A DNA stretch of 30,630 bases from a virus, in the IMG/VR virus record IMGVR_UViG_3300017748_000062, positions 1-30,630 of that record, one strand, 5' to 3'. Numbering within the stretch: the stretch's first letter is position 1; each line of letters starts with the position of its first letter. Of the stretch, positions 5,403 to 30,433 are shown one piece after another. The notes under the pieces are model-generated. The model did no database searches and was not told where the DNA came from. It worked only from the letters and a program-made list of their open reading frames with translations. The position numbers and the translations under genes are program-made.

Positions 5403-8400
5403 ATGCCTGAACTTACTCCATTCCAAGAATGGTCCCCATCTAGCGGACCTATTGCCGACCCTATTGAAAATAGGAAACAGTATTCTAACTACGTTCGGGA
5501 GGAGTATTTAAAAAGCGGAGAGTATACCCCAGAGGTAGAAGAAGATATTTTAGGGGCGACGGCCAAGGGTTTAGTAGAAGTTGAAGGGGTTTCCCCCCAA
5601 GACCTAGAAGGAACACTTTCGCCCCCTCCACTCACTTTCGAGGACAAGACACGAATACTCGAAAAAGTTTTAAGAACGGGTTACCTGTATACAGAGGGTC
5701 GTGAAAGCAGTGCCCTATACGACTTCACTAATTTTATCGACGATGGGTCAGAGGAGGCTCAGAAACGTAAGCAGCCAATACAAGAGGCCGCTGAGTCATT
5801 CGTCGAGAAGTATTATAATCAAGCCGCTAAGACAGCCGTAGCTAGAGAGCTTACCCCATACGCCCGTATCCAAGCCGATGACGGTAGCATTACCCTCATT
5901 GGAGGAGGTGCCGCAGAGGGCCTTAGTCCTTATAAGGCTTACAAGCAGTCCCTAGACAGTGGGATGATTCAAGCTGATGACGCTCCACTTATATTCAGAG
6001 GACAACAGAAAGACGAACAAGGGTTTGAGATATTCAGATACGAAAACGTTTCCACCGCTTTCCACGCCTTTCAACAGGTAGAGGAATCATTTTTCAGTGA
6101 TTCCATTAATAGGTTAGCCGAAGGTATGGCAGAGACGGGCGAGTTGAACGAACAGGACACTGAGTTCTTAATACGCCAACTCAAAGAACAGGTACCTGCC
6201 GCCAAAGAAATCCCTGAGGGGGACATCGTAGCTGCCCTTGATTACTATGTGGGTAGGCAGTCTCTCAATTACACAGATTTCGATGATGAAGATCTAAGCA
6301 ATAACGTAAGACGTTTCGGTTTAGGTCAGGTGGCCGTCCACCCTCAAGCGATGGATAACACTGAGGTCTTTGAGGCTACGATCTCTCAGTTAGCTGATCC
6401 AGAAAAAGAAAAGCTTAGAGCGGACCGTGAGGCCTACCGTGAGGCAGCCTTCACTGAGTATAGCCAAGCGTTCCAAAGGAGTTACTTAGCGGATGAGTGG
6501 ACCACTGCTGTTTCGGAGGGTAAGGATAAGGGCATGACTAACGGAGAGATCATTGACGCTTTCACGGCGGAGCATGATGAAGAGTCTTACGGGTATATCA
6601 GAAACGAGGTCTTAGGGCTCGTCGGTAACTCTATCCCTGAGTCCATCACTGATATTGTCTGGGGTGTTGGCGCGATGTCTGGAAATGAGTTCGCTAGGGA
6701 ATCTCTACTTGAAAACGAAAGAGACAGACAGGCTAAACGAAGAGTAGCTCAAATTTTAGGTGAGGAAGTAAACTGGGGTATCGAATTATCCTCAATGGTC
6801 GCCCCCGTTATTACGGACCTTACCGCCACCGCTTTAATCACTAAAGGCACCGCCGGAACCGCTACTGCCGCTTACTTAGGCACTAGGCTTACAGCTAAGG
6901 GGTTAATGAATACCGTCATCAAAGGTAGTTTACGCCAAGGCGCGAAAGAATCATTGGAGGAAGCCGCAGAAAGGGTATCAATAGACCTCATCCGTAAAGT
7001 CGGATCTAAAGAAGCGACTACGGCTAACGCCAAGACAGCTATCCAAGCCTACACAAAGATGCTCCACTCTAAGGTCCCTACTGTTTCGAGTATCTTTATC
7101 ACCGCCGGAACCCGTAGCGGGACCATGACCTACGCATCTGTGTATGACGCACTAGGCAGGACTGAAGAAGGGAAAGCCCTTACCGACGAAGAGAGGCACC
7201 AGAGGGCCCTGAAGACAGGCCTCATTGCGGCTGTAACTACAGGGGCTATTACTTCTGCCTTTACCTTAGGTGGTTTAGGCGGTCTTGAGAGTTACCTCAT
7301 GACACGCGCTACAGTAGGAGACGCGAGGAGAATGTTTACGGTCCTCGCTAAAGGTTTATCCGCTTCTGATGAAACCCTAACTAAGAGTCAGTTTGGTCAA
7401 ATCTTAGGGGCCATCACTAAGAAACACGCGCCTAAATACTTTAACGCAATAGCCGTCCCCAGAGGCGTAGCCGCTGTTGGTATGGGGGCAATAGGTGAGG
7501 GTCTAGAGGAGGGGCTCGATGAGTATATCAACACCCTTATTCAGACCGTCGCAACCGCGAGGGATGATTTAAGTTTTGGAGAACTGATGGCTCATACCGG
7601 AACCGCTGCTGCTTACGGCGCAACATTTGGTGCAGGCATGCAAGGGGCTCGACGGGCCTTCAGCCGTATATCCGGTGCTTCTGATGTATTTGAAACGCAA
7701 GAGTCCCGTAAGCTTATGGGTGAGAGGGTGCGCGAGGACATGGTCAGCAGGTTAGAAGAAGCCGGTAGCCCAATGTCCGCAGAGGTAGTAGGTGAGAAAC
7801 TACAGGGTATTATCGATAAAGGGGAAAAGGTTTCCGCCGACAGTGCTAAAGAGACTGAAGAGAAACCAGATGAAGAACCTAAAGAGAAAGCACCTGAAGA
7901 GAAAGCAGCTAAGAAAGCAGCTAAGAAAGTAGCTAAGAAAGTAGCTAAGGACAAAGTTGAATCTGAGACTGGCGGCTTTGTCTTCACCATCGAGAACAAC
8001 GATGTAGGCTTTGTCTTAGAGGTTAAAGAGAAGTTCTCGAAGACAAGAAAGAAAGTAAATAAAGCAGCTGAGGAAACAGCAGCTAAGGAAACAGCAGCTA
8101 AGGAAACAGCCGCTAAGAAAACTGACGCTAAGAAAGCAGCTAAGAAAGTAGCAGCTAAGAAAGTAGCAGCTAAGAAAGCAGCTAAGAAAGCAGCTAAGAA
8201 AGCAGCTAAGAAAGCAGCTAAGAAAGCAGCTAAGAAAGTAGGAAAACCTTCAGTCACCCTTGAGGTAAAAAAGAAAGCAGTCGACAGACAACCTCAGGAG
8301 AACAAAAAAATAGCCGAAGATACCATAGATGATAAAGAAGGTAACTTCGGAACTGAGACTATAGAGACAACAGAGGAGCAAAGAGATAGACAAGCTAATG

Positions 8401-11400
8401 ACGCCCTTGAGTTCCTTATCGATAAAGGATACCCTTATTCTTTTTATTCTGAACAGTATGGGTTTCCTCGCCTAACAAGACCTCAGGTAAAAGAGTTTAA
8501 GGAGAAACTAAAAGCTGGTATCAAGAAGAGATACCCAGTCTTCTCTGTCAAAGAGGTCGCTACACTTTATAACATCGACCCCTCTAACATTGTAGTCCAA
8601 AAGAAAGGTGTAAGGGAGGGCAATAGGGGTCCGTTTCTTTTCAACAACGACCTCAAACAGATTAAAGCCCTCGTTGATGCGGGTCATAAAATCAAAACCC
8701 CCGACAACCTTAATAAGACAAAAGGTTACAACCCCTCGATTGTTATATTTAACAACGTGGTAGACTCAGTCAAAGGAGTCGACCCCGCTACTGGTGAGGT
8801 GATTACTTTAAATAAAGTGTCACTAGATAAGTCAGATATGTTTTCGGAGGTGGACATAGCTAGAGTCCTCCTTGACCGACACCTACTTGAAGGGGTTGAT
8901 CTGAAATCACTCAATACTATTATTGACGAGTTCAATATTGCAGGGTTTTACCCTAAGTTTACGAGTGATAACAAGGACATCATGGAGAAACTAGCGGCTC
9001 TCGATGAAGAAGAAAACCAGATCGACCCGCCCAATAAGAAAAAGTTTAAGAATGAAGAAGACTACCAAGCCGCAGTAGCGGCCTTCAACAGGGCCGCTAC
9101 TGAGAAAACTAAGATCCTTACAAAGCTGGCACAAGAAGGGGCAGACTTCGACGGGAAACAGTTCGTCCTACACGGCCCTATGGACATATCCGATGCGGTC
9201 CCAGCCATTAAAAAATGGATGTCTAAAAACTATGAGCAACTCGCTGAACGTAGCACCGCTACGGGGCGTAAGTTCGCAACAGCCACTAAACTTCACCGTC
9301 TCGGCTACAGAACAAGGGAAGGGGCAGATGAGTTTTTTGCTAAGGCGGCGGTCAAGTTCTATTTTGAACTGTCACTAGCTGTAAAAGTAGCGGGACTAAG
9401 AAAGATGCTCCTCGACAGGGGGTTCTTAGACATTGATGTGAAGGGCGGTAAACCTGTCTACTCCTTCAAAGAGGGTCTATTCCCTGAGATTGACCCAACT
9501 AAAACGGTTGGTGGGGACCCTGAATCCCGTGCCGTTAAGAGCAATCTAGGTGAAGTGGAGTCCGATGTGACTAACGCTATCATGTCTGCGTTCCCTATGG
9601 ATAGCATATCTCAATGGTTCCAGACTGATTTACTCGAAAAAGGCGAGTCGATCAACATTGGAAAAACAAAAACACCCGAAACGGACCTTGTTATATCCTC
9701 TAAGACAAGTAAGCTTCAACAGCTCGCAACCTACCTCTACTCTACTAACAAAGGTACAGGAAACTTCGGAACCGCTACCGCAGATGAGATGAAGAAAGTG
9801 AGGGCGTTAGACCAGAGGTCTATGGCAAAAGGAGGTAGGCAGTTAAAACTTACAAAGAACTGGGAGCACTTCGTTATTAAGCGGTCTATCGAGAAGCTTA
9901 TCAACTATAATGCCTATAATCCTACTAACTCTGTATCTCCTTTCCCTAACTTTTTACTAGCGGCTAAGAGGGCAGGCGACTCTATTAACAAGCAAGTATC
10001 TGACTTTATTAATAACGACAGGCTTGTTAGCGCGGGAGAACTTGGCGTCGAGCAGATGTCAGACACGACCCAGACCCAAGCAGAGCAGGACGTTGAAGAG
10101 ACTACAGAAGAAACTGGAATCGCTTCCCCTGAAGAAAGGGCTAAGGATTACGATGAGGTCTCTAGCGATGTTAGGGAATTGTTTAAAACTAGCCTCAACC
10201 AACTTGAGGCCCTTAAAGGTAGTAAACGGACTAAGTTACTTGATAACTTACGACTAATTTCTGGTAAATCAGAAGCTTTCACTAAAAAAGAAGGTGTAGT
10301 AGGTCCTTTAGTATCCACCCTCAATAGCTCATCTAAAGATCACCTAGCTTATCAGACCGCGTTCAGAGATCTACCCCCCGTTGTGCGGGCAATGTTCTAT
10401 GTAAGAGGGTATGACCCAACCCCTCAAGCAGAGGCGGAGCTAAAGGAAAAGTTCGGTCAAGCTCGTTTGGTTCTCTCACAGGACAACGCACCTAACTGGT
10501 TCTTAGGACTAGAGATTGAGGCGGTCGTTAATCGTAACCAAGAGGACGTAGACAGACTAGGTCTTGTCAACGGGGACCCCGCTTCTGTTGTTGAGGCGAT
10601 CAGAGAGATCTCTAAGACGGGTGTAGATGAGTCCCACCGACTGATAGCTAAACTACTCCTCCAGAATAAGGACGTGATCTTAGGATCTAAGTTCCTTATT
10701 AAGCAAGACAAGGACGCACAAGCCGGAGCGTTTGAGGTGTTCTCAGATGGAACGAGTCAGGTAACCCTTAACATCGCGGGTTACTACGGTAGCGGTGTAG
10801 AGTCTATTGTTCTTCACGAATACCTACACGCCCTTACGGACAAGCTTCTTAAGACAGACAAGGCGAAACTTACCCCTAAACAGAGGGCCGCTATCCAGCG
10901 TCTAGAGGGTCTCCGTAAGATCGTCCAGAAAGAATACGCTAGATCTTTGGAACTAGGTAGTAAAGAGAAGCTAGAGGTTAACTACGGCTTAACTAATATT
11001 TCAGAGTTCATCTCTACGATGTTCACCTCGACCGCGTTCCAGAACGCCGTTAGGGGAATGCCTCGTAAGGGTCTCGTTCAGCGGTTCGTCGATATCGTGA
11101 AGGACTTAATTGGGCTAGGTAAGAACACAAGACTCTCACGCGCTTTCGATGATCTGGTCGACTTCATTAACATGGATGTCTCAGAGAACCTGACACCACT
11201 CGCGAAGCTCGATACCTTTATCGAATCTCATGAGGTTACAGAAGCTTCACCGGAAGGTAAGATCTTCAGTAAGTTTATATCGGACATGAAGAAGGCAGTC
11301 GCCCCCGATACGACCGAAAGACTCTCAAGTTTCTCCGGTCTTGATACCGGAGCTACTTTGGATGCAGAAGGGCAAGCACAACTAGAAGAGATCCTTGAGC

Positions 11401-14400
11401 AAGCTGTAGCTCAGGTCATCCCGTCTAATGTTCCTGTAAAGTTAGTATCTGACATCACAGGCACCCCATTAGAGAACGACCCCAAGGCTGCCTTCATGGC
11501 AACGATTGTTGAGGAGGATGGGGTAGGCATCCCTACCATGTTCATCAACCAAGCTAACTTGGAGTCTTACTTAGCTGAGACAGGAGGAGAACTCTTCTCT
11601 CCTAAACTAACTAAGATGCTTACTGAGTCCCTGCTTAGTGAGGAGTTGATACACGTCACTGAGTTCAGGACAATATCTACTGAGGAACTTGACACGATAG
11701 TTGACTCATTAGCAGACAGCACACTAACGGGAATCGTATCTCAGTATACGGCTAAAAGTAGTAATACAGAACTCAGAGATAGACTCAACAAAGGTATCGC
11801 AGAGAACGATGCGGTAATTAAACGCCAGATCGTAGGAGAGAAGTTACGCATGTCTGTCCAGAAGATCATGCGGGGTTCTACCACTGAGGAAGATATCGCC
11901 TTCTACATGGGCGAGCCTTTCTTCGCTCGTATCCTTTTCCGTTACCTTGCGAACGTGTTCCGTAAAATATCTGCGAGGTATAACCTCCGTAAGGAGAACC
12001 CATACATGGCTGCCGCGATTAACGCGATGGCCCATGAGCTTAACTCGCTACGTCAAGGTAGTTTCTACGCATCAACAGTATCACGGTTTGATGTTAATAG
12101 GCCTAACGAATCGCTTGAAAACCTGAACCAAAGGTTAGCCGCCACCTTCGCGGGGGACCCTGATATAGAGATCGATGAGAACACCAGTCTTGCGGACGTT
12201 TACAAACGGTTCTCCCATCTAAAGGTTTTCGAGATCGCTTATGGGGTGTTTGAAAAGAAGAAATACACACCTAACAAAGGACTTAAGAGACTGCTGAATG
12301 GGGATAGTGATTCACGCGTTCTAGAATTAGATCTCCAAGCGGAGGCTGCCGCTAATGGGGTAACCCAGAAAACGATAAGTGACGCCGCGATTGTCATGGA
12401 CCTTCTAGAGAAGAGCCCAGAGGTTACTAATGATCTCCTCGCCGATTACTTAGGTAGGCCTGACAACTTAACTCCAGATGACAATGTCATGGAGGATATC
12501 CAACAGAGGCACCTTAGGCAGATCGCTATCGCGAAAGAGAAACTAGCGAGAGGGGAGACAACTGAGCCTATTGATTATAAAGCCTTAAAGAAAGCGCACT
12601 ACGACGCGCCCCTTGAGGCTTACCAGAAAAAGGTTCGGGCTCAACTCCTCACAAAGAGGGACGCCGCCGCTACTCAAATCGAGAAGAAGAACCCTAAGCT
12701 TTATCAAGCGTTGAAGAACATGCGGGACCATTTGGACGCGTTATCAAAGGTCTTCGCTGAACAATATGACGTTGATGGTAACCTAAAAATGGTCATCGAC
12801 CGTAATCTTGGTATCTACGTTATAAGACAATACAGGGCGTTCACTGAAGAGGGATACCTCGATAAGATACTCAAGGTCGCTTCCGGTCAGCGTGAAGTAG
12901 GCGATATCCGTATGGTTGAGAATTACGATAAGGCCCACGAGTTTATCGAAGGTCAGTTTATACAGCAGTTCGTCCGCGATAAGAGAAGCGAAGAGAAACA
13001 GAAGAACATCCCCCGCAGTAGGCGGTCAACAAAAGAACAGTTGGCGGACGAAGGGCGGATACAGCTCCATACAAAGGGGGGTCAGATTCAAGTCAGGCAA
13101 GCCATCGTCGCTTATCTCCAGTCACTTGATACCAGATATGGTAGCGTGAATGAGGTTACTAAACCAGCCGCCAGTATGTCGCGGGCTATCTTCGACCAAG
13201 TAAGGAGAAGACAGGACATCCCTAAACCTATCCGCGATCTTCTCGGCCAATACGATGAGTCGGATGTGGTTAATAATGTTGTCCGTTCTATTGATGCTAT
13301 AAACAAGGCCACCTCTAAGCAGTCCTTCATTAAGAACCTGATCCAACTCGGTCACCAAGATAAGAACCCTGATACAGGGTTCATATTCACGCAACAAGAA
13401 TTAGACACGCTCCAGTTAGATGGTAAGGCCTTACCTGCCCCCTCTATGTTGAACGTAAGAACGGGGGAGCCTTACGCATATAACGCGGATGTCGCTAAGT
13501 CAATTAAGGATGAGGTAGAACAGACCTATGATATAAGGGCAGACTACTATATTCCTGAAGAGGCATACTCCCACATTAGAAACCAGTTCAGACCGGAGCC
13601 TAGTGTGTCATCACTCTCGCCCGACAAACAAGCGGTAGAAGCAGCGGTGACACTTGTCAGAACGCTCACAGGAGCATCACTGGCGGCTAAGACTTTAGGG
13701 TCGTTCGGATTCTATGTCCGTAACGTGCTTGGTAACGCACTGTTCTTCGCCCCGATGAACGGTATGTCACCGATTACCGCATTGAAATCAATGAACTCAC
13801 TGCGACGCGCCTTTAGCCTATCTCCTACTAAAATGAAGGAGATCTCTGATTATGAGGCGAGACTTATCGCGCACAACGTGCTGGGGGGTGATATCACAGC
13901 GGGGTTGATTCGCGACATTGTTGATAGTAACTTCGATCCGAATGAGGCGAACAAGGAACTCAACGGCCTTCTCGATAAACTAAAAGCGGCCACTAAGAAG
14001 GCAGCCGACTCTAAGGCGGTTCAGAAGATCAAGACCCAGTTGTTCGACAGAGCCTTACTCCTTTCCGAAAGGGTGGATGCCTTCTACAAGATAGCTTACT
14101 TTGAACACGAGGTGAAGGTATACGAAGAGGCAGTGGCGTGGGACAAGGCGAACGGGAATGTAGGAGACCTCGCTACCTACTCCCCATACGAAATTGACAC
14201 AGCCGCCGCTCACAATGTCCGTAGGACATCGCAGTCCTACAAAGACAGATATGAGCTGGTCAAGACCCTCTCGTCTAAGTATGGATACTTACTCGCTCCG
14301 TTCTTAGGGTTCAAGACTGACATGCTCCGCATTACGTTTGACGGTATCCCTAAAACTATTTCTCGTGACCTAAAGAGCAACAACGCTGTTCTTAAGAAGC

Positions 14401-15413
14401 GGGGCTACCAGAGGGCTATCGGGCTCTCCACTGTAGCGGTTGGTTTTGGTATGATTATACCGACCGTCATGAGACTGATGTATGGTATAGGAGAAGAAGA
14501 GGATGAAAACTATCGTGAGACCGTCCCCCTCTACCACAAGAACGCGACCTTCATTTACTACCGCGATAGCGAGGGTGTTATAAGGGCTTACCCGTTCACC
14601 TTCCTCTTACCGTTCTCGGACTACGCGGAGCCCGCCCTTCGTCTCACAGAGCACACCATGAGAGGCGAGTTCGGAGAAGGTCTCCTAAAATCAACAGGTA
14701 TGATCTTTGGTAGTTACGCCGACGATCAGATATTCGCTGCCGCCATTAAAGACGCTATCGTCAACAAGGATGATGCGACAGGTGACCCGATCTTTGAGGA
14801 CGGTGACGGGTTCATGATTCCCGCTAAGATATTCAGCTACATTTATCAGAACTCGTTTGAGCCAAGAACCGCCAAGGCGTTGAGAGACGCCCTCAAGGCG
14901 AGCATGGGTGATGAACCTACTGATCCAGACAAGAGGGCGGCTGCTATCCTCATGAAGGAGCTATACCCTGTCAGAGGAAGTAAGGTGGATCCTGTCCGCG
15001 CTCTTTCTACCTTCATTGCCCGCAAGAGGTCAGAACGTAACCGACTTAGGTCGAAGCTCAACAAGCTCAAGTCACAAGGCTCCCTTACTGAAAGGGAGAT
15101 CGAAAGAATGGGCATCGAATACATCGAAGGCCTACGTCAGATTGACAGGAAGATCTTATCCGCTACTAAGTCTTTCGAGGCCTTTGGTCTTACACCTAGA
15201 CAAGGTAGACAGGTTCTCAGCGAGAGCTACTTAGGTATAGGTAAGGACAGACAGAAGAACCTCCTTAGGGGCCGTATGAGAGTGTCGAGAGTAAGTGAGG
15301 CCTTCAGAGAAGACGTAAAGTCTCTGGGCGAGGTAGGCACCCAGAGACTCCGTATCTTAGATAATATTATTAGAAAAAATTATCCTACGTTTATAAGGCT
15401 GGAAGACGATTAA
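5403..15413 (+). CDS. Giant internal-virion / polyvalent protein with zincin domain
   Basis: One uninterrupted frame of 3,336 residues, a third of the window. Features in order: an acidic helical N-terminal region; a Gly/Ala-rich hydrophobic stretch at about 605-630 (possible membrane segment); Lys/Ala-rich tracts at about 833-850 and 887-946, resembling histone H1 or AlgP tails; a metalloprotease motif VLHEYLHALTD with HEYLH at 1805-1809 and a possible third zinc ligand E1868 in NISEFIS; a degenerate EELIH at 2080-2084. The C-terminal region (about 2750-3336) has VRNVLGN, LSERVDAFYKIAYFEHE and a hydrophobic segment near 3005-3030, patterns I associate with phage polyvalent or ejected virion proteins. 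The likely role is ejection with the DNA, with peptidase activity on peptidoglycan, host or phage proteins. It is the size of the N4 virion RNA polymerase, but I found no polymerase motif. There is no Shine-Dalgarno; a TATAAT lies 5 nt upstream. Confidence 0.85.
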   Translation: MPELTPFQEWSPSSGPIADPIENRKQYSNYVREEYLKSGEYTPEVEEDILGATAKGLVEVEGVSPQDLEGTLSPPPLTFEDKTRILEKVLRTGYLYTEGRESSALYDFTNFIDDGSEEAQKRKQPIQEAAESFVEKYYNQAAKTAVARELTPYARIQADDGSITLIGGGAAEGLSPYKAYKQSLDSGMIQADDAPLIFRGQQKDEQGFEIFRYENVSTAFHAFQQVEESFFSDSINRLAEGMAETGELNEQDTEFLIRQLKEQVPAAKEIPEGDIVAALDYYVGRQSLNYTDFDDEDLSNNVRRFGLGQVAVHPQAMDNTEVFEATISQLADPEKEKLRADREAYREAAFTEYSQAFQRSYLADEWTTAVSEGKDKGMTNGEIIDAFTAEHDEESYGYIRNEVLGLVGNSIPESITDIVWGVGAMSGNEFARESLLENERDRQAKRRVAQILGEEVNWGIELSSMVAPVITDLTATALITKGTAGTATAAYLGTRLTAKGLMNTVIKGSLRQGAKESLEEAAERVSIDLIRKVGSKEATTANAKTAIQAYTKMLHSKVPTVSSIFITAGTRSGTMTYASVYDALGRTEEGKALTDEERHQRALKTGLIAAVTTGAITSAFTLGGLGGLESYLMTRATVGDARRMFTVLAKGLSASDETLTKSQFGQILGAITKKHAPKYFNAIAVPRGVAAVGMGAIGEGLEEGLDEYINTLIQTVATARDDLSFGELMAHTGTAAAYGATFGAGMQGARRAFSRISGASDVFETQESRKLMGERVREDMVSRLEEAGSPMSAEVVGEKLQGIIDKGEKVSADSAKETEEKPDEEPKEKAPEEKAAKKAAKKVAKKVAKDKVESETGGFVFTIENNDVGFVLEVKEKFSKTRKKVNKAAEETAAKETAAKETAAKKTDAKKAAKKVAAKKVAAKKAAKKAAKKAAKKAAKKAAKKVGKPSVTLEVKKKAVDRQPQENKKIAEDTIDDKEGNFGTETIETTEEQRDRQANDALEFLIDKGYPYSFYSEQYGFPRLTRPQVKEFKEKLKAGIKKRYPVFSVKEVATLYNIDPSNIVVQKKGVREGNRGPFLFNNDLKQIKALVDAGHKIKTPDNLNKTKGYNPSIVIFNNVVDSVKGVDPATGEVITLNKVSLDKSDMFSEVDIARVLLDRHLLEGVDLKSLNTIIDEFNIAGFYPKFTSDNKDIMEKLAALDEEENQIDPPNKKKFKNEEDYQAAVAAFNRAATEKTKILTKLAQEGADFDGKQFVLHGPMDISDAVPAIKKWMSKNYEQLAERSTATGRKFATATKLHRLGYRTREGADEFFAKAAVKFYFELSLAVKVAGLRKMLLDRGFLDIDVKGGKPVYSFKEGLFPEIDPTKTVGGDPESRAVKSNLGEVESDVTNAIMSAFPMDSISQWFQTDLLEKGESINIGKTKTPETDLVISSKTSKLQQLATYLYSTNKGTGNFGTATADEMKKVRALDQRSMAKGGRQLKLTKNWEHFVIKRSIEKLINYNAYNPTNSVSPFPNFLLAAKRAGDSINKQVSDFINNDRLVSAGELGVEQMSDTTQTQAEQDVEETTEETGIASPEERAKDYDEVSSDVRELFKTSLNQLEALKGSKRTKLLDNLRLISGKSEAFTKKEGVVGPLVSTLNSSSKDHLAYQTAFRDLPPVVRAMFYVRGYDPTPQAEAELKEKFGQARLVLSQDNAPNWFLGLEIEAVVNRNQEDVDRLGLVNGDPASVVEAIREISKTGVDESHRLIAKLLLQNKDVILGSKFLIKQDKDAQAGAFEVFSDGTSQVTLNIAGYYGSGVESIVLHEYLHALTDKLLKTDKAKLTPKQRAAIQRLEGLRKIVQKEYARSLELGSKEKLEVNYGLTNISEFISTMFTSTAFQNAVRGMPRKGLVQRFVDIVKDLIGLGKNTRLSRAFDDLVDFINMDVSENLTPLAKLDTFIESHEVTEASPEGKIFSKFISDMKKAVAPDTTERLSSFSGLDTGATLDAEGQAQLEEILEQAVAQVIPSNVPVKLVSDITGTPLENDPKAAFMATIVEEDGVGIPTMFINQANLESYLAETGGELFSPKLTKMLTESLLSEELIHVTEFRTISTEELDTIVDSLADSTLTGIVSQYTAKSSNTELRDRLNKGIAENDAVIKRQIVGEKLRMSVQKIMRGSTTEEDIAFYMGEPFFARILFRYLANVFRKISARYNLRKENPYMAAAINAMAHELNSLRQGSFYASTVSRFDVNRPNESLENLNQRLAATFAGDPDIEIDENTSLADVYKRFSHLKVFEIAYGVFEKKKYTPNKGLKRLLNGDSDSRVLELDLQAEAAANGVTQKTISDAAIVMDLLEKSPEVTNDLLADYLGRPDNLTPDDNVMEDIQQRHLRQIAIAKEKLARGETTEPIDYKALKKAHYDAPLEAYQKKVRAQLLTKRDAAATQIEKKNPKLYQALKNMRDHLDALSKVFAEQYDVDGNLKMVIDRNLGIYVIRQYRAFTEEGYLDKILKVASGQREVGDIRMVENYDKAHEFIEGQFIQQFVRDKRSEEKQKNIPRSRRSTKEQLADEGRIQLHTKGGQIQVRQAIVAYLQSLDTRYGSVNEVTKPAASMSRAIFDQVRRRQDIPKPIRDLLGQYDESDVVNNVVRSIDAINKATSKQSFIKNLIQLGHQDKNPDTGFIFTQQELDTLQLDGKALPAPSMLNVRTGEPYAYNADVAKSIKDEVEQTYDIRADYYIPEEAYSHIRNQFRPEPSVSSLSPDKQAVEAAVTLVRTLTGASLAAKTLGSFGFYVRNVLGNALFFAPMNGMSPITALKSMNSLRRAFSLSPTKMKEISDYEARLIAHNVLGGDITAGLIRDIVDSNFDPNEANKELNGLLDKLKAATKKAADSKAVQKIKTQLFDRALLLSERVDAFYKIAYFEHEVKVYEEAVAWDKANGNVGDLATYSPYEIDTAAAHNVRRTSQSYKDRYELVKTLSSKYGYLLAPFLGFKTDMLRITFDGIPKTISRDLKSNNAVLKKRGYQRAIGLSTVAVGFGMIIPTVMRLMYGIGEEEDENYRETVPLYHKNATFIYYRDSEGVIRAYPFTFLLPFSDYAEPALRLTEHTMRGEFGEGLLKSTGMIFGSYADDQIFAAAIKDAIVNKDDATGDPIFEDGDGFMIPAKIFSYIYQNSFEPRTAKALRDALKASMGDEPTDPDKRAAAILMKELYPVRGSKVDPVRALSTFIARKRSERNRLRSKLNKLKSQGSLTEREIERMGIEYIEGLRQIDRKILSATKSFEAFGLTPRQGRQVLSESYLGIGKDRQKNLLRGRMRVSRVSEAFREDVKSLGEVGTQRLRILDNIIRKNYPTFIRLEDD
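7901..8240 (+). repeat. Lys/Ala-rich coding repeats (AAKK units)
   Basis: Two blocks inside the giant gene, 7901-7950 and 8061-8240, are built from tandem GCTAAGAAAGCA-like 12-mers encoding AAKK, plus diverged AAKET and VAAKK units. They give a strongly basic helical tail of the kind found in histone H1-like and AlgP proteins. Such tracts bind DNA nonspecifically and change length by slippage. The opposite strand shows a spurious long frame here. Confidence 0.9.
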
Positions 15414-17742: not shown

Positions 17743-18996
17743 TTATTGTTGGGCCTTGAGGATTTCGGAGAGGCTAATTACATCGCCGAAAGGGAAGTGG
17801 GATTCACTAAGGCCATAAGTGACCCACAAGGTTGGGGTTGAAGGTTCATGGTCAGGGAAGTCGCCGTAGCCGTCAGTCAAGTAGATGACGACACGGGCGT
17901 CCTCGATGTTATCCTCGACATGCTTGAGAGCGGGGCGGAAGCTTGTGCCACCACCACCCTTGTAGTCGAGGGAGATCGTATCGAACGGAGAATACTCAAC
18001 CGTGTCACAGACTTGGGCATCAGCATCGATGACCACAATCTTCTCAAAGTCGAGTTCATCACACGCTTGTTGAACGACACTCGTAACGCTACCCATGGTC
18101 TTGTCGTCCATAGAACTGGAGGTATCACGGACGAACACCAAGGTGCCGTGCCGCTCATCCTCTATACCAGCTATACATATGTCATGCATGGCGAGGAACT
18201 TACGGTCGGGTCTGGTGCTACCGTCTCCAATACAGAACTCGGTGACATACTTGCTGAGTATATCTTCGAGGCTAAGGGGAGTCTCGTAGAGGTCCTCCAG
18301 CTTTTTCTGGAAGTCCCCACCTAACTCACCACGTAGCTTGGAGGTTTGGATACACGAGCCCAGTAGCTCGCGCCACTTGTCGTTGAGTTCTTTGGAACCC
18401 CCATCGTTGGGGATCTCGAACTCGCCTACACCGCTGCCACCTTTGCCGCCACCGTCGCCGCCATCATTGTCGCCCTCATTGTCGCCGCCCCCGCCCCCGC
18501 CGTCGCCGTCGCCATTGACTTCGACTTCGCCGTCAGGGTTGCCACGAGGGGGTGGTGGCGGTGGTATGTCAGGCATCTCCAGTTTCTTGAAGATAACTTC
18601 AGCCGATAACTCACCCCACTTGTCGACATCGATACAGCCGTCAGGGGGTAGGATTACAGGTATGGCGGCGTCATTGTTGTATGAGGTAATGAACCCATTC
18701 AACTCATAGTCAGCCGCTGCATTAGCTCGGCGGTGGTCAGTCTTGAACTGAATAGCCAACCGTTCTAGGTGTCCCAACAGGGGGTGACATAGCTCGTGGA
18801 TCACGAGCCCCACTGTCTGGGCTTTGGTAAGCCCGTCTACAAAGGACGGGTTATAACGGACCACCGTGCCATTGGTGCATGCCGTGTCGATACGGGTATC
18901 TTCATTCCAAGGCATTGCCACTACGGCAGGACCAAAGAACCCATGATGAACCACTACTTGACGTAGGGCGTAGTTTATTTTCTCTCTCGCGTTCAT
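17743..18996 (-). CDS. VWA protein with metallopeptidase-like N-domain (DUF2201-like)
   Basis: A 417-residue, two-domain protein. The N-domain has a zincin motif VIHELCHPLLGHLER (HELCH at 67-71, further His at 76) and ADYELN (96-100), as in the putative metallopeptidase domain found with DUF2201. A disordered linker of Pro, then Gly/Asp repeats (about 145-190), joins a von Willebrand A-like domain. The metal-ion site is visible as DTSSS at 291-295, GGTSF at 349-353 and TDGYGD at 374-379. VWA proteins of this kind work with MoxR-family AAA+ ATPases in remodelling complexes, and one is encoded just upstream on the same strand. The start context is A/C-rich (ACTAACGCAAAATG) without Shine-Dalgarno. 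Whether the peptidase centre is active is unknown. Confidence 0.85.
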   Translation of the reverse strand: MNAREKINYALRQVVVHHGFFGPAVVAMPWNEDTRIDTACTNGTVVRYNPSFVDGLTKAQTVGLVIHELCHPLLGHLERLAIQFKTDHRRANAAADYELNGFITSYNNDAAIPVILPPDGCIDVDKWGELSAEVIFKKLEMPDIPPPPPPRGNPDGEVEVNGDGDGGGGGGDNEGDNDGGDGGGKGGSGVGEFEIPNDGGSKELNDKWRELLGSCIQTSKLRGELGGDFQKKLEDLYETPLSLEDILSKYVTEFCIGDGSTRPDRKFLAMHDICIAGIEDERHGTLVFVRDTSSSMDDKTMGSVTSVVQQACDELDFEKIVVIDADAQVCDTVEYSPFDTISLDYKGGGGTSFRPALKHVEDNIEDARVVIYLTDGYGDFPDHEPSTPTLWVTYGLSESHFPFGDVISLSEILKAQQ

Positions 18997-19225
18997 TTTG
19001 CGTTAGTTTTAGTATTTGTGTTTGGGTGGACATGACATCCACAGGAACGTTGTTAGCCTCCTCCGATATGAGGTAGTAGCCCATCATTGATGTAGTGTAG
19101 TGATCAGGAGCATAAGCTCGCAGCCAGCGCACTAGATTGACGACATCTACATCCCACCCCGCCCTAAGAATAGAGGGCGGGTTTGCAGGGGGCTTGGCTA
19201 GCTTAGTCAACGATGAATTCTCCAT
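18902..19225 (-). CDS. Small protein between AAA+ and VWA genes
   Basis: A 107-codon frame that fills the 206 bp between the AAA+ and VWA genes. It starts at an ATG overlapping the 3' end of the AAA+ gene by 23 bp and runs 95 bp into the VWA gene. The first 80 residues (VDVVNLVRWLRAYAPDHY, then TTSMMGYYLISEEANNVPVD) look like real protein, while the Ser-rich tail within the VWA gene does not. The long overlap is unusual for this compact block, so it could be a short gene with an atypical end or a chance frame. I do not recognise a family. Confidence 0.45.
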   Translation of the reverse strand: MENSSLTKLAKPPANPPSILRAGWDVDVVNLVRWLRAYAPDHYTTSMMGYYLISEEANNVPVDVMSTQTQILKLTQNERERENKLRPTSSSGSSWVLWSCRSGNALE

Positions 19226-20285
19226 AGTGTGCAAGCCATGAGAGCATAGTCTCAGTCCGATGCAAGTCTGATCTACGTCTACGTAGCCCATTACCTACAA
19301 ACATCTGCATCATAGCAGGTTCCTTGCGGGACTTCCAGTCTGGGTCGTTAGGGGTGGATAAACGCTGGGCAAGCGTTAGGATGTTCTTGATGTTCTCCTT
19401 GGTAGCTAGTGTGATGAGGCGACAGGCCACCAACCATTGCAGGTTGGGTTCCCTCGGTATGTCACAGGTGCGACACTCGTCGACCATTCTACCTACGTCA
19501 CCCACCTTGCTGGCGAGCTTGATGAACTCAGCGAACATGGAACCGTATTTAGGACCCACGCAAGACTGTGCATGTTGCAGGAACAGGGGATCAGATGTAG
19601 CCTCGACTGCTGAGTCGTAGCTGGCCACAAGCTCATCGAGACGGCTGAATGACCTGAAGGTCGGCAGGTTCTCCTCACCAGACCAGTCTTCTATCTTGAA
19701 GTTATAAGGCGCGTCAGAGTTAGCGTTGATGAACGCCAACACTTCTGGAGACTTACCCTCCCGCTCAAGGTGAGACTGGAAGCTCACGATGTCAGGGCGC
19801 ACCTCATAGATAGCGAAGCGGTCGACTAACGCCGCCAGCATACGCTGACAACCTGTCTTCTGATCCAGCTTGTTACTGGCAGCGCACACAATAGTGCCTT
19901 CAGGAAACTTCATCTTGCCGACACGACGGTCGAGCATGGCCTGCATGAGGGCCTTGAAGGTCGAGGTCTGGGCCTGACCGATCTCATCAAAGCATATGAC
20001 GTTACGCTTAGTAGGATGGAAGTCCCAGTCTTCATCTGGAAACCACTCCATGATACCTGTCTCACGGTTCGGGATCGGGAAACCCCTTACATCGTTGAAG
20101 GTCTTGTATGCGGCGCGGAAGTCGATGAAGTGGAAGCCGTTATCGTCGGCGAACTTCTTGACCATGAAGGACTTCGCGAGGCCATACCAGCCCAAGAACA
20201 GGGGCGGCTTTCTGTTGCCAGCTTTCGCTGAACGCTCAAGGACGGGCACGATGTCAGATGACGTAATGGTAGTATGATTAGACAT
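19203..20285 (-). CDS. MoxR-like AAA+ ATPase
   Basis: A 360-residue AAA+ ATPase. The P-loop is atypical: GWYGLAKS at 32-39, where the usual GxxGxGKS has Ala at the last Gly position. Walker B is VICFDE (96-101), sensor 1 is AASN (135-138), and LVDRF near 153-157 fits the conserved arginine of MoxR-type proteins. RGFPIPNRETG (about 67-77) matches the substrate-loop region. The enzyme probably uses ATP to remodel targets delivered by the VWA protein encoded downstream. The start is preceded by an A/C-rich leader (AACAAAAACAAAAACC) and TATTATATT, with no Shine-Dalgarno. The altered P-loop raises the question whether it hydrolyses ATP normally. Confidence 0.85.
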   Translation of the reverse strand: MSNHTTITSSDIVPVLERSAKAGNRKPPLFLGWYGLAKSFMVKKFADDNGFHFIDFRAAYKTFNDVRGFPIPNRETGIMEWFPDEDWDFHPTKRNVICFDEIGQAQTSTFKALMQAMLDRRVGKMKFPEGTIVCAASNKLDQKTGCQRMLAALVDRFAIYEVRPDIVSFQSHLEREGKSPEVLAFINANSDAPYNFKIEDWSGEENLPTFRSFSRLDELVASYDSAVEATSDPLFLQHAQSCVGPKYGSMFAEFIKLASKVGDVGRMVDECRTCDIPREPNLQWLVACRLITLATKENIKNILTLAQRLSTPNDPDWKSRKEPAMMQMFVGNGLRRRRSDLHRTETMLSWLAHYGEFIVD

Positions 20286-21819: not shown

Positions 21820-22121
21820 AGTTCAGGGTTGTAGGATAATACTCTCTCAAGGTAAGGCTTTGGGAAGCTGAAATAGAAGGGCCACCCATAACTTAGGGGA
21901 CGAAAATCACGGAGCGAATGAAGTTGCTCCGGTTTTCGGATACCTTCATGACCGTAAACCTCAATCGCCTTCTCTTCGTCGTGGTGCAGGCTGAAGGCCG
22001 CAGTAAACCAACCTTCGGGGCATACGCGGAGTAGCCCTTCCATGTCTTCAGGAAACATGAAGCCGTAGATCTCGGTATACCCGACATTGCCTAGGTCGTC
22101 AAAGTGTTCAAATCTACTCAT
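21816..22121 (-). CDS. Small protein, function unknown
   Basis: A 101-residue protein starting MSRFEHFDDLGNVGYTEIYG, rich in aromatic residues (SYGWPFYFSFPKPYLERVL near the end), no recognised domain. The ATG at 22121 is preferred because it overlaps the phosphoesterase stop by only 8 bp; an upstream start at 22187 would lie deep in that gene. Its own stop overlaps the next ATG as ATGA. Its place in the chain of overlapping genes is good evidence that it is translated. Confidence 0.6.
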   Translation of the reverse strand: MSRFEHFDDLGNVGYTEIYGFMFPEDMEGLLRVCPEGWFTAAFSLHHDEEKAIEVYGHEGIRKPEQLHSLRDFRPLSYGWPFYFSFPKPYLERVLSYNPEL

Positions 22122-25178: not shown

Positions 25179-27395
25179 ATGTCTAATCTCCACGAACTTG
25201 ACGGCCTAGAACTCAGCCCCTTTGATGAGAAAGGCAAGAAGGTCGAAACACGCTTACGGGACGTAAAAAGTGCGGTATCTATATTCAACACTTTACTAAA
25301 AGCTGATGAAGGTAGCGCCGTAAATCGCTCACGAATTGACAGTATGTTTGACGGTGTTGCGCCCTACAGCCAATCACAGTTAGCGGCTAGTGGTCAGGGA
25401 CTCAAGACCAACTTGAACTTTGGAGAAGCACAGCGTTTACTAGATATCTCTCTTTCGGCCTACGTTGACCTCTACAGCTCTTTGGAGCGCCTTGTGGAAG
25501 TCAAGTCCACAACAGGTGAGCGGAGCGAGCAGGGGCCAAAAGAGGACATTGTAGCGGAAGAACTAACAAACCTCTTCCGCCGATGGCCAGAGTTTCACAG
25601 CAGCTACCTAAGGTTATGCACACAGTTCGTTAAGCATGGTGTTGGGATTACTTATTTTGATTCACCAGAAGACTGGAAGTTCCGTGTCGGGGGTTTCTCA
25701 GACATCTTAATACCGCGACAGTCTCAAGCAACAGAAGACGCAATCGATATCGCTGTTGGACGCCGACGTTACCACTTACATGAACTTCATAACTTCATTA
25801 AAAATGAAAAGGCCGCTAAAGCGGTCGGTTGGAATATAGCAGAAGTAAAACGTGCGATGCTCAAGAACGTCCGCACATCAAGCCGAAGCAATGGTGGTAA
25901 CACCTACTCTGACTACGAAGAACTACAAGTAGAAATTAAGAACAACGATCTCTATACTGGACACCAAAACCCTACCGTCGACGTGCTCCATTACTGGGTG
26001 CGTGAACTCGACGGTAGTGTGAGCCATTACATATCCGCTGAGACTGATCCTAAAAATTTCATGTATAAAAAGGTCAGCCGCTACGATACACCCGAGCAGG
26101 CGTATATCTTCTTCACATATGGAGTTGGTAGCAATGGCACTTATCATTCCATTAGAGGACTCGGCCAGCGGATCTTCTCCCACGTTCAAACAAGTAACCG
26201 ACTACGTTGCCAGCAGATAGATGGTGCAATGTTAGCGTCGGCTGTAATGATTCAGCCAGAAAACCAACGCTCGTTGGACGAACTCAGCTTTACTTTCTAT
26301 GGCGCGTATGCCGTGATGTCACCTAACGTCAAGATTGTTGAAAAGGCTATCCCGAACTTAGGCACAGCGGTCCAACCAGCCTTGCAGGATTTGACGCAGC
26401 AACTTTCGTTGAACACCGACACAATGTCTCCGTATGGGCCAAACCAGACTTCGCCCTACAAGAACCAGATGCAGGTTGTAGCGGACATGGATGTAGCTAC
26501 ACGTATTAGTGGATCAACACTAAACCTCTTTTATTCAAGTTGGACTCGCCTGATGCGCGAGATGGTGCGCCGTGTTATTCAGGTAAAACGACCTGACGCG
26601 GCGATTAAAGATTTCTTCGACCGTTGTGAGAAACGGGGCGTAGATAAAGAATTCATTAAAAAATTAGATGTCGCACAGACCAAAGCAGTTCGTTCCATTG
26701 GCAATGGATCGCAAGCAAACAGACTCGTCTCGCTTCGCGAGCTTCAAGGAATTAGTGGGCAATTCGATGACATTGGTCGCCGCAACCTTACTCGTGACAT
26801 CGTTAGCACTCGTGTCGGTCACGACCTCGCGGATCGCTACGTTCCGGCGCAAGAGTCAGAAAGACAGTCGGTAGATACTAAAATCGCCTACCTTGAGAAC
26901 CAACAGTTGCAACAAGGACGACCTGTCCCAGTTGTGTCTAGTGAGTTACATGGTCAACACTTACAGTTACATGTCCCATTGCTTCAGCAGTTTATACAAT
27001 CAATGGATGAAGGGCAAGCAGACCCACAGCAAGTTCTTCCAGCATTGCAGGCACTTTACCAACACATTAGTGAGACCGCCCAATACGCCGCTGGTGATCC
27101 CGCATTGGAGCCAGTAGTTGCCAACACAAGACAGGTCCTTCAATTCGCTGAGGAAGCAATCAACAACACCATGAAGGCGTTGGAAAAGATTCAGAGAGAA
27201 CAACAACAAATTTCTGAAGATGGGGGTGGACAACCTCAAATGTCTGAGGTAGACATGAAGCTACAGAAGGCGCAAGTCGATATGCAGATCACGCAGCAGA
27301 AGGCTGAACTAGACATGGCTATCAAGCAAAGAAAGTTCGACCAAGAGCAAACGATTCGCGACGCGGAAGCCGCCTTGAAGTTTCGTGAACAATAA
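25179..27395 (+). CDS. Portal protein (head-tail connector)
   Basis: A 738-residue protein with the features of a podovirus-type portal: an alpha-rich N-terminal wing (about 75-140, LNFGEAQRLLDISLSAYVDL), a central clip/stem region with SPYGPNQTSPYKNQMQ (about 417-432), and a long C-terminal helical barrel or coiled coil rich in Gln/Lys/Asp (about 660-738, KLQKAQVDMQITQQKAELDM). Gene order portal, small protein, scaffold, major capsid is the usual head operon and supports the call. It forms the dodecameric ring through which TerL pumps DNA. A sigma-70 promoter ends 8 nt before the ATG and no Shine-Dalgarno is seen. The next gene starts 2 nt after the stop. I recognise it from architecture and context rather than from one diagnostic motif. 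Confidence 0.85.
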   Translation: MSNLHELDGLELSPFDEKGKKVETRLRDVKSAVSIFNTLLKADEGSAVNRSRIDSMFDGVAPYSQSQLAASGQGLKTNLNFGEAQRLLDISLSAYVDLYSSLERLVEVKSTTGERSEQGPKEDIVAEELTNLFRRWPEFHSSYLRLCTQFVKHGVGITYFDSPEDWKFRVGGFSDILIPRQSQATEDAIDIAVGRRRYHLHELHNFIKNEKAAKAVGWNIAEVKRAMLKNVRTSSRSNGGNTYSDYEELQVEIKNNDLYTGHQNPTVDVLHYWVRELDGSVSHYISAETDPKNFMYKKVSRYDTPEQAYIFFTYGVGSNGTYHSIRGLGQRIFSHVQTSNRLRCQQIDGAMLASAVMIQPENQRSLDELSFTFYGAYAVMSPNVKIVEKAIPNLGTAVQPALQDLTQQLSLNTDTMSPYGPNQTSPYKNQMQVVADMDVATRISGSTLNLFYSSWTRLMREMVRRVIQVKRPDAAIKDFFDRCEKRGVDKEFIKKLDVAQTKAVRSIGNGSQANRLVSLRELQGISGQFDDIGRRNLTRDIVSTRVGHDLADRYVPAQESERQSVDTKIAYLENQQLQQGRPVPVVSSELHGQHLQLHVPLLQQFIQSMDEGQADPQQVLPALQALYQHISETAQYAAGDPALEPVVANTRQVLQFAEEAINNTMKALEKIQREQQQISEDGGGQPQMSEVDMKLQKAQVDMQITQQKAELDMAIKQRKFDQEQTIRDAEAALKFREQ

Positions 27396-27397
27396 AA

Positions 27398-27694
27398 ATG
27401 CCAACTAGAAAGAAAACCACTGTCCCAATTAAGCTGGAGCACTGGTTCAAAGATTTAAAGTCAGTTACAAAGTTGCGGGAGTTACTAGAAGACCCCTGCT
27501 TGCAGCAGGCTATTGCTATTTTGAAAGAGGCCTCTGGCCCAACGGTTACGTCGTTGGACGCAGACCCGCAAGCGAACAGCCATAAACTGGCTTGGTATGC
27601 GGGATACAGGGATGCCTTTAATGATCTGGAGAAGCTGACCCATAGGCCCTCCACAACTAAACCTAACCAACCAGACGAATGGACTCACCTGTAG
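27398..27694 (+). CDS. Small protein of the head operon, function unknown
   Basis: A 98-residue protein between portal and scaffold. The N-terminus is basic (MPTRKKTTVPIKLEHWF), the middle helical (LRELLEDPCLQQAIAILKEA), and a second helix (HKLAWYAGYRDAFNDLEKL) precedes a Pro/Thr-rich tail. Small helical proteins of this kind are common between portal and scaffold genes in podoviruses, without an established role. The ATG follows the portal stop by 2 nt. Its last 16 bp overlap the scaffold gene in another frame. It ends in TAG, and a second in-frame TAG follows within 20 bp, so here TAG clearly acts as a stop. Confidence 0.75.
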   Translation: MPTRKKTTVPIKLEHWFKDLKSVTKLRELLEDPCLQQAIAILKEASGPTVTSLDADPQANSHKLAWYAGYRDAFNDLEKLTHRPSTTKPNQPDEWTHL

Positions 27695-28290
27695 AAACCC
27701 CCGAAGCCGTAGAAGCCGAAGTTGTTGATAACGTAGAAAGCTTACCCGACGCCAACGAACCCCAAAGTTTTGAAGCCTCACTAGAAGCCGCCTTTGCTAA
27801 TATTAACCAAGAGATCTCTGAACCCGAAGAGGAAACTATTGAGGAAGAACCTGTCGCAGAAGAGGTTGAGGAGGAGGTCGAAGCGGTAGAGGAGACCGAA
27901 GAAGTTGAGGAAAGCGAACCCGTCGCTGAAGAAACAGAAGAAACCTCTGACGAAGAGACCAGCCCCTTAGATGAGCTAACAGAAGACATCGGTGACGAGT
28001 GGACCCCGAAAGCGGCTAACCGATTCAAGGAACTTAAAACCGAGTTAAAATCTAACCGTTCCGAATTAGACCAATTAAGGCAAAAGTCTACAGAATACGA
28101 GTCCAAGATACAGGAATTAACAGCCCTTGCAGATAATAAAGATGTAGAACAGCTACAATCACGCCTTGCTGAGTTTGAACAGCAGCAAGCACTCACAAAC
28201 CTTGAACAAACCGAGGCATATCAAGCCGCTGTATCTACCCCTTTATCTGAATTAGTAGAGCAAGCAGACCAAATTGCTGACAAATACTAG
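27679..28290 (+). CDS. Scaffold protein, N-terminal half ending at an in-frame amber
   Basis: 203 residues up to a TAG at 28288-28290. The first half is extremely acidic (Glu-rich, about 45-105), then DEWTPKAANRFKELKTELKS (about 111-130) leads into a heptad-rich coiled coil (LDQLRQKSTEYESKIQELTA). Acidic, coiled-coil proteins encoded between portal and major capsid are capsid scaffolds. The same frame stays open for 201 further codons after the TAG (to 28896) with matching composition, so the intact product would have about 405 residues. Either the amber is read through, giving a short and a long form, or the gene is broken by a point mutation or base-calling error. The start overlaps the previous gene by 16 bp; no Shine-Dalgarno. 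Confidence 0.85.
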   Translation: MDSPVETPEAVEAEVVDNVESLPDANEPQSFEASLEAAFANINQEISEPEEETIEEEPVAEEVEEEVEAVEETEEVEESEPVAEETEETSDEETSPLDELTEDIGDEWTPKAANRFKELKTELKSNRSELDQLRQKSTEYESKIQELTALADNKDVEQLQSRLAEFEQQQALTNLEQTEAYQAAVSTPLSELVEQADQIADKY

Positions 28291-28410
28291 GTAGATTCAG
28301 ACGCTTTAGTAGATGTTATCGCTTTAGACGACCCCGACGAGCAGGAAGCGCAGCTTTCTGAGCTATTACCAGACGCCTCAGACAGAGATAAAGCCCGAAT
28401 CTTCCGTATT

Positions 28411-28896
28411 ATGGAGGACGTAAACCCTATTTTAGACCGAAGACAACACCTTTATGAGAACGCAGAGGCCGCTTTAGCTGAAGCAACACAACTAGAAGAA
28501 CAAAAAACACTAGCCGCGACAGCAGAAAAAGCACAATTAAGACAAAATGTGACCCGAAATGTAGTCGAAAGAGTGCAACAGAAGCTACCTTTCCTTAAAG
28601 GACTCGAAGAAGTCAATATGGAGAGTATCCAACAGAAGGCTTCTGATACAGATCCCTCTGTCCTGCACCCCGTAGACCATGCCTATAACTCTGTTTCCGC
28701 GCAGCTTTTACCTACTATCGTCAAAAATTACCTACGATCACAGAAAGAGATCGAGGTATTAACGAATCAGTTAGCTGAATACGAGGAAGCAGAGCCAGCG
28801 ATGTCTGGCCAGACTAAAGCTACCGCAGATCCCTCAGGTCTTACAGATGATATGACCTTTGAGCAGCGAATCAACGCCGCCTTAGGAGCCGTGTGA
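28411..28896 (+). CDS. Scaffold protein, C-terminal half (after the amber)
   Basis: In the same frame as the upstream half; the open frame actually resumes at 28291, straight after the amber. The 40 codons before the first ATG (28411) also look coding (VDSDALVDVIALDDPDEQEA), which argues for a continuous protein rather than a separate gene starting at 28411. The region is helical and acidic (AEAALAEATQLEEQKTLAAT), then KLPFLKGLEEVNMES, and ends with a typical scaffold C-terminus, SGLTDDMTFEQRINAALGAV, of the sort that contacts the capsid protein. If the amber is not read through, this half could be made only by internal initiation, for which no signal is seen. Confidence 0.75.
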   Translation: MEDVNPILDRRQHLYENAEAALAEATQLEEQKTLAATAEKAQLRQNVTRNVVERVQQKLPFLKGLEEVNMESIQQKASDTDPSVLHPVDHAYNSVSAQLLPTIVKNYLRSQKEIEVLTNQLAEYEEAEPAMSGQTKATADPSGLTDDMTFEQRINAALGAV

Positions 28897-28902
28897 CCCC
28901 CG

Positions 28903-28930
28903 TTGACAGATCTCCAGACAATGATAAGAT
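28903..28930 (+). promoter_or_regulatory. Candidate sigma-70 promoter upstream of the capsid gene
   Basis: Perfect TTGACA (28903-28908), 16-bp spacer, TAAGAT (28925-28930, 4 of 6 to consensus). The predicted leader to the capsid ATG is about 160 nt and holds two direct repeats. This separates capsid expression from the scaffold gene and would allow higher capsid output. A second, AT-rich -10-like stretch (TTATTTATTTAAAAT, 29083-29097) lies directly before the ATG and may add a leaderless start. Confidence 0.55.
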
Positions 28931-28944
28931 GCACTTATCAGTTG

Positions 28945-29026
28945 GGTTGCTCTAGCCTTAAATAGTTCTAAACAACTGGTAAAGCACATAGAAACTCCGG
29001 TTGCTCTAGCCATTGATTAGTTCTAA
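28945..29026 (+). repeat. Direct repeats in the capsid leader
   Basis: GGTTGCTCTAGCC...TAGTTCTAA occurs at 28945-28971 and 28999-29026, spaced 54 bp; the 7 central bases differ. The first copy lies in the loop of CAGTTG/CAACTG arms (28939-28944, 28973-28978). They may be protein-binding or RNA-structure elements that set capsid expression. The AACTGGTAAAGCAC stretch resembles a tRNA D-arm, but no tRNA folds. Confidence 0.7.
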
Positions 29027-29098
29027 GAGGTTCGCCCTAAAACTCTTTAGTTTCCGACCACGTTGGCTGGAAGCGCAAACCCTTATTTATTTAAAATC

Positions 29099-30433
29099 AT
29101 GTCTACATTTGACCTCGCTGGTGGCACCACTGTCATCGACACTATCCTCGCTCAAGAAGCTAACCGCATCGGTAGCGATATCTACTCACGCACACTCCAC
29201 ACCTCTCCTTGGTTGGACCTCACTAAACAGTCCGCATTTCCTGATGGAATGGGCTACCAACAGACCACGCTCGTATATGACCGCGCCATCGCATTGAATG
29301 ACTCAAATGCTTCGGATGGGACGGATGATCCTAATACTGTTGGCGCAAAATGGGCTGACGTATCTAACCAGTTCGGTGCCACAGCACTCGGTGAAGGAAA
29401 ACTTGTTGGTGGAGCACAAGACGCCGCTGGCCGCAGTGGACTCGGAGCTGACACACGCTCCTTCGTTCAGTTCAGCAAGAAACTCAAGTCGTTCAAACTT
29501 GAGCGGGCCGTAATCGAGTCACCAAAGATTTCTTTGGAGGACCTACGATTCGCTTCACACCGTCAAGAGCAGCTCCGTGCAATCATGGACCTCATGACGC
29601 AGGTTACCCGTAACACTTGGGAGAACCGTTACCGTGACGAATACGAGAAAGTCGCCGCTAACTTGACCTGCTGCCTCGCTGCTGGTTCTGTTACCCGTTC
29701 GACTGTTGACGCTGACGCTGATAACACTTCAGACGATCCGTTTGAAGGAAATATTCTTACTGCACTTGACTTAGCTAAGTCCGGCGCAAGTAACGCTGAT
29801 ATTAGCCCCGACGCTAACGTCTCTAACGCTGTCCTTGACAAAATCTACTACCAGCTCATCCGCGCAGGTGCAGGTTCAAACGCATACGGTCGCGAGAATG
29901 GTCGCCCAGTCTTCTCGATTGTTATTTCTTCTGAAGCTTCTTACCAGCTCCAGACTGAAGCCGGATTCCGTGATGACGTTCGCTACAACAACGCCAAGGT
30001 CAGTGACCTGATCGCTCCATTGGGAATCGAGAAGTCCTTTAGAGGATTCTACCACCTTGTTGACGATCTTGCCCCTCGCTTCACTATCTCTAGTGGAGCC
30101 TTGACCAAGGTCGATCCTTACAGCTTGTCTGGCGGAGTCGTTATCCCGAACACAGCTTACGAGACCGCTCCTATCGAAGCAGCGTTCGTAATGCACCCTG
30201 AAGTTTGCGAAGCCCTCATTCCTAACCCAATGAGCGGAGGCAACGGAGTTAGCTTTAACCCTGTTAACTACCGTGGTAAGTTCGACTGGAAGAACATCAT
30301 CAGTGAGTCCACCAACCCTGACGGAACCCTTGGTTTCTTCCGTGGTGTTCTTGCGAGCGCAACTAAGCCCATCAAGACTGAGTTTGGTTACGTTGTTCTC
30401 TTCAAGCGCGACTCCAGCACTCCTGCTACCTAA
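29099..30433 (+). CDS. Major capsid protein
   Basis: A 444-residue protein from the ATG at 29099 (MSTFDLAGGTTVIDTILAQE). An upstream in-frame TTG at 29063 is rejected because the leader shows no coding character there. The composition is balanced and soluble, with a helical N-arm, a long central helix (DLRFASHRQEQLRAIMDLMT, about 149-168) like the HK97-fold spine, and a beta-rich C-terminus (FGYVVLFKRD). Position directly after the scaffold, its own promoter and C-rich codon use unlike the accessory genes (a sign of high expression) support the capsid call. I do not recognise the specific family. It is followed 12 bp later by a strong stem-loop. Confidence 0.8.
   Translation: MSTFDLAGGTTVIDTILAQEANRIGSDIYSRTLHTSPWLDLTKQSAFPDGMGYQQTTLVYDRAIALNDSNASDGTDDPNTVGAKWADVSNQFGATALGEGKLVGGAQDAAGRSGLGADTRSFVQFSKKLKSFKLERAVIESPKISLEDLRFASHRQEQLRAIMDLMTQVTRNTWENRYRDEYEKVAANLTCCLAAGSVTRSTVDADADNTSDDPFEGNILTALDLAKSGASNADISPDANVSNAVLDKIYYQLIRAGAGSNAYGRENGRPVFSIVISSEASYQLQTEAGFRDDVRYNNAKVSDLIAPLGIEKSFRGFYHLVDDLAPRFTISSGALTKVDPYSLSGGVVIPNTAYETAPIEAAFVMHPEVCEALIPNPMSGGNGVSFNPVNYRGKFDWKNIISESTNPDGTLGFFRGVLASATKPIKTEFGYVVLFKRDSSTPAT

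Follow-up and report, generated by a model that had tools for sequence, protein, structure and literature searches.

The window analysed here is the entire IMG/VR virus record IMGVR_UViG_3300017748_000062 (30,630 bases), probably a fragment of a virus genome: it measures 30.6 kb, whereas records of relatives reach about 55–60 kb, so that a portion of the genome is unseen. Its head region comprises a putative portal gene, a gene for a 98-aa protein, a putative scaffold gene and a putative major capsid gene, in an order common to the window and its relatives. The features considered below are as follows.

25179–27395, + strand: putative portal gene, named from position and size; intact, with close relatives at about 90% identity
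27398–27694, + strand: gene for a 98-aa protein between portal and scaffold, with a genuine TAG end, overlapping the scaffold start
27679–28287, + strand: codons 1–203 of the putative scaffold gene, forming its first half; start ATG conserved in close relatives
28288–28290, + strand: in-frame TAG at codon 204, where 82 of 82 distinct relatives have sense codons, chiefly GAG, GAA, GAC or GAT
28291–28896, + strand: remaining half of the putative scaffold gene, with 201 codons followed by TGA (28894–28896), ungapped and conserved like the first half
29099–30433, + strand: putative major capsid gene, intact; identity assigned from position and size

The interruption described in the earlier note is present as stated: the TAG is codon 204 of the frame running from the ATG at 27679 to the TGA at 28894–28896, the frame stays open for 201 codons past it, and the next in-frame ATG is that at 28411. 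At the second half's own base composition, the chance of 201 stop-free codons is about 2e-5, and this half aligns with close relatives over all 201 positions at 69–74% identity with no gaps. The improbable open run and the ungapped identity together indicate a genuine coding sequence broken by one stop. A frameshift or a decayed gene was ruled out, there being no gaps and no additional stops; the other genes of the window are intact.

Identification of the interrupted gene as a head scaffold is suggested by gene order and by its acidic, helical composition. The gene lies between the portal and major capsid genes, as expected of a head scaffold, both neighbours being named by position and size. 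Residues 1–100 are acidic and weakly conserved, and a conserved helical part follows. Searches against protein families and folds linked it to known scaffolds by weak, non-significant matches only (phrog_1879 at E 0.017–0.079, and one BFVD scaffolding entry at E 0.1). An AlphaFold2 prediction from 65 relatives (mean pLDDT 74, pTM 0.43) leaves the first ~90 residues disordered, with a helical region thereafter. The TAG site corresponds to residue 192 of relative L061, a short predicted turn within a continuous, confidently predicted helical region spanning residues 98–359. Since the TAG falls inside this helical stretch, the short product would, according to the model, end mid-region and lose more than half of the stretch together with the entire C-terminal part. 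In phage P22, the scaffold binds coat protein via its C-terminal helices, and loss of 11 C-terminal residues abolishes binding (PMC9965877); by analogy, a half-length protein would probably fail as a scaffold.

Relatives were gathered with three queries. The portal protein retrieved 24 related viral contigs, 20 of which span the TAG site; the scaffold alignment retrieved 71 loci on viral contigs and 4 on MAG contigs; and the capsid protein retrieved 24 further loci, partly on contigs already collected. After identical proteins were merged and only those longer than 200 aa kept, 82 distinct relatives from viral and MAG contigs remained. The closest is about 69% identical in the scaffold protein, with saturated synonymous sites, and a degenerate DNA pattern built around the TAG site matched only the close relatives already known and none closer. 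The comparison may leave out near-identical records, so that a very close relative sharing the TAG would have escaped it. Searches of 50,697 phage records (INPHARED) by tblastn with the portal and capsid proteins returned no matches, which points to a tailed-phage group of marine type that has no close relative in that collection and is known here from IMG/VR contigs. The four MAG contigs that carry relatives are labelled Opitutae, Verrucomicrobiales, Acidimicrobiaceae and Blastopirellula; the unrelatedness of these bacteria suggests mis-binned phage rather than an indication of the host.

All 82 distinct relatives encode the scaffold protein in a single frame, usually of 370–420 aa, with no internal stop. 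The codon in the TAG column is GAG in 22 of them, GAT in 17, GAC in 15 and GAA in 13; the other 15 have AAT (4), AAC (2), glycine codons (7), GCT (1) or CAA (1), and none has TAG. Close relatives carry GAG at the site (GAA in L010) and share the local sequence ADKY-E-VDSDAL, and a single base separates GAG from TAG. The earlier note had named a sense codon in relatives as the sign of an error or a private mutation, and this is the state found in every relative compared. Its suggestion of a nonsense mutation or sequencing error thus gains support from the relatives, while the origin it offered as an example, CAG, does not, the ancestral codon having been acidic, as judged by GAG in nearly all close relatives. 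Measured against relatives, the first half has a pN of 0.17–0.21 and the second one of 0.16–0.20, and pS lies at about 0.8 or higher in each; this pattern shows that the full-length protein has been functional over the long term. Saturated synonymous sites and a long branch mean that the change is not datable in this lineage, and the pN/pS comparison is silent on the time after the stop arose. Internal stops were also sought in the relatives' genes for portal, MCP, terL and the 98-aa protein, and none turned up in 262 distinct sequences (~109,000 codons); their absence marks the TAG as a rare one-off in the phage family. Apparent TAA stops in four terL loci of relatives proved to be an alignment effect, their positions lying upstream of the true ATG. 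A chimeric contig was likewise ruled out, as the terL-to-portal layout is that of the relatives and the remaining record is intact with matching gene order.

The most economical interpretation, held here with high confidence, is that of an ordinary, conserved phage head-scaffold gene in which the TAG reflects a private nonsense change at a single base. Under this interpretation, either the assembled sequence would be wrong at one base through a sequencing or assembly error, or the genome itself, or else the population consensus in the sample, would bear a recent and probably deleterious mutation; we consider the two about equally likely. No translational recoding mechanism would be needed. The change would then be recent or would never have been present in the virus, and the truncated product, if made, would be expected not to function as a scaffold.

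The alternatives to a private change, namely readthrough, suppression and gene splitting, are improbable even taken jointly. Programmed or tolerated readthrough in the phage lineage, giving a short scaffold of 203 aa and a long one of 404 aa, was the possibility that the earlier note found most consequential, and it draws on a second half that is open and conserved and on a site that accepts E, D, N, G, A and Q in relatives, so that any inserted residue would probably be acceptable. The conserved open second half does not discriminate, however, because a recent change or an error predicts it equally well. A stop conserved at the site, as expected for programmed readthrough, is present in 0 of the 82 distinct relatives. 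Three RNA segments around the TAG were compared with dinucleotide-preserving shuffles and showed no folding advantage (z +0.91, +0.84 and −0.47), the RNA 3' of the stop scoring +0.8 to +0.9; no conserved nucleotide context was detected either, third codon positions nearby varying freely among close relatives. In the literature covered by the search, readthrough is not described for any scaffolding gene, the nearest wording concerning a tail-gene frameshift in P2. With sense codons in all relatives, no downstream structure and no conserved context, the proposal of paired short and long scaffolds is unsupported, and we regard it as very unlikely. A similarly low probability attaches to the variant in which the amber is real and fixed in one lineage, and low-level readthrough or suppression sets the ratio of half- to full-length scaffold.

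Suppression, with a tRNA from the host or from the missing portion of the genome reading TAG as sense, is slighter still in its probability. The difference in length between the 30.6 kb record and relatives of ~55–60 kb means that the unseen portion could encode such a tRNA. However, no tRNA was detected in the 30,630-base window, and a suppressor, which the earlier note had listed among its options, was found neither there nor in the complete records of close relatives; tRNA-Thr(tgt), present in two distant relatives, is the sole tRNA seen among the relatives. Moreover, TAG is in regular use as a terminator. Four genes of the window close with it, at 22114 (− strand), 24566, 25132 and 27694, as had been noted before; of the 24 gene frames examined, these four end at TAG and one is interrupted by it. 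In about 20 relatives, the scaffold gene too closes with TAG. The earlier judgement that global reassignment of TAG is unlikely was thus right, and this possibility was ruled out on the strength of these functional stops. The TAG end of the 98-aa gene recurs in 20 of the 25 loci compared in relatives, a set in which certain contigs are represented more than once; this is weaker evidence than it appears because that stop lies across the beginning of the scaffold frame. Least probable of all, to the point of being scarcely credible, is a gene split in which the second half forms a separate protein from an independent start. The ATG at 28411 would yield a protein of 161 aa, yet no Shine-Dalgarno-like sequence precedes it, the 40 codons ahead of it are conserved like the remainder but would be lost, and all relatives encode a single chain.

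Several other features of the record deserve mention independently of the interrupted gene. Between the scaffold gene and the ATG of the capsid gene lies a leader (28903–29098) that is far more conserved than the adjacent genes and contains two copies of the motif GGTTGCTCTAGCC-N5..9-TAGTTCT, at 28945–28969 and 28999–29024, preceded by a promoter-like sequence, TTGACA-16-TAAGAT. In relatives, the copies are 54–81 nt apart. The motif, itself invariant, was located on 85 viral contigs, a large share of which are scaffold-bearing contigs of this phage family; the flanks of each copy vary between phages yet stay mutually complementary. In predicted folds, 97 of 116 distinct units form 5 or more flank-flank pairs, whereas 20 shuffled controls averaged 39 such units and never exceeded 50, and an Rfam search gave no match even at E≤1. 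The leader is a candidate for a new tandem structured RNA 5' of the major capsid gene, as far as fold predictions allow. Elsewhere, at 17743–20285 (− strand), a DUF2201 metallopeptidase/VWA-like protein adjoins a phage ATPase (phrog_1297), constituting a MoxR/VWA-type pair on a phage, and a 3,336-aa open frame at 5403–15413 (+ strand) combines a lysine/alanine-rich repeat stretch with a HEYLH metallopeptidase-like motif; its product is possibly a giant internal virion protein.

The case underscores that a lone in-frame stop in a metagenome-assembled virus needs comparison with relatives before recoding is proposed. Should the stop nevertheless be real and used, it would represent a new means of setting scaffold dosage in capsid assembly.

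Set against known systems, the protein resembles the head scaffolding proteins of tailed phages, such as P22 gp8, in its place before the major capsid gene, its acidic and mostly helical character and its length, whereas a significant sequence or fold match to scaffolds of this type is absent. TAG-recoded phages (code 15, crAss-like phages, phAss-1) offer a likeness in carrying in-frame TAG within a structural gene. They differ in bearing many such codons, with 41 TAG-interrupted ORFs in phAss-1 (PMC10607447), whereas the present record has a single in-frame TAG, uses TAG as a real stop and yielded no suppressor tRNA. The closest parallel is with private nonsense differences in metagenome-assembled genomes, which likewise affect one record and one base while all relatives are intact, and from which no feature distinguishes the present case.
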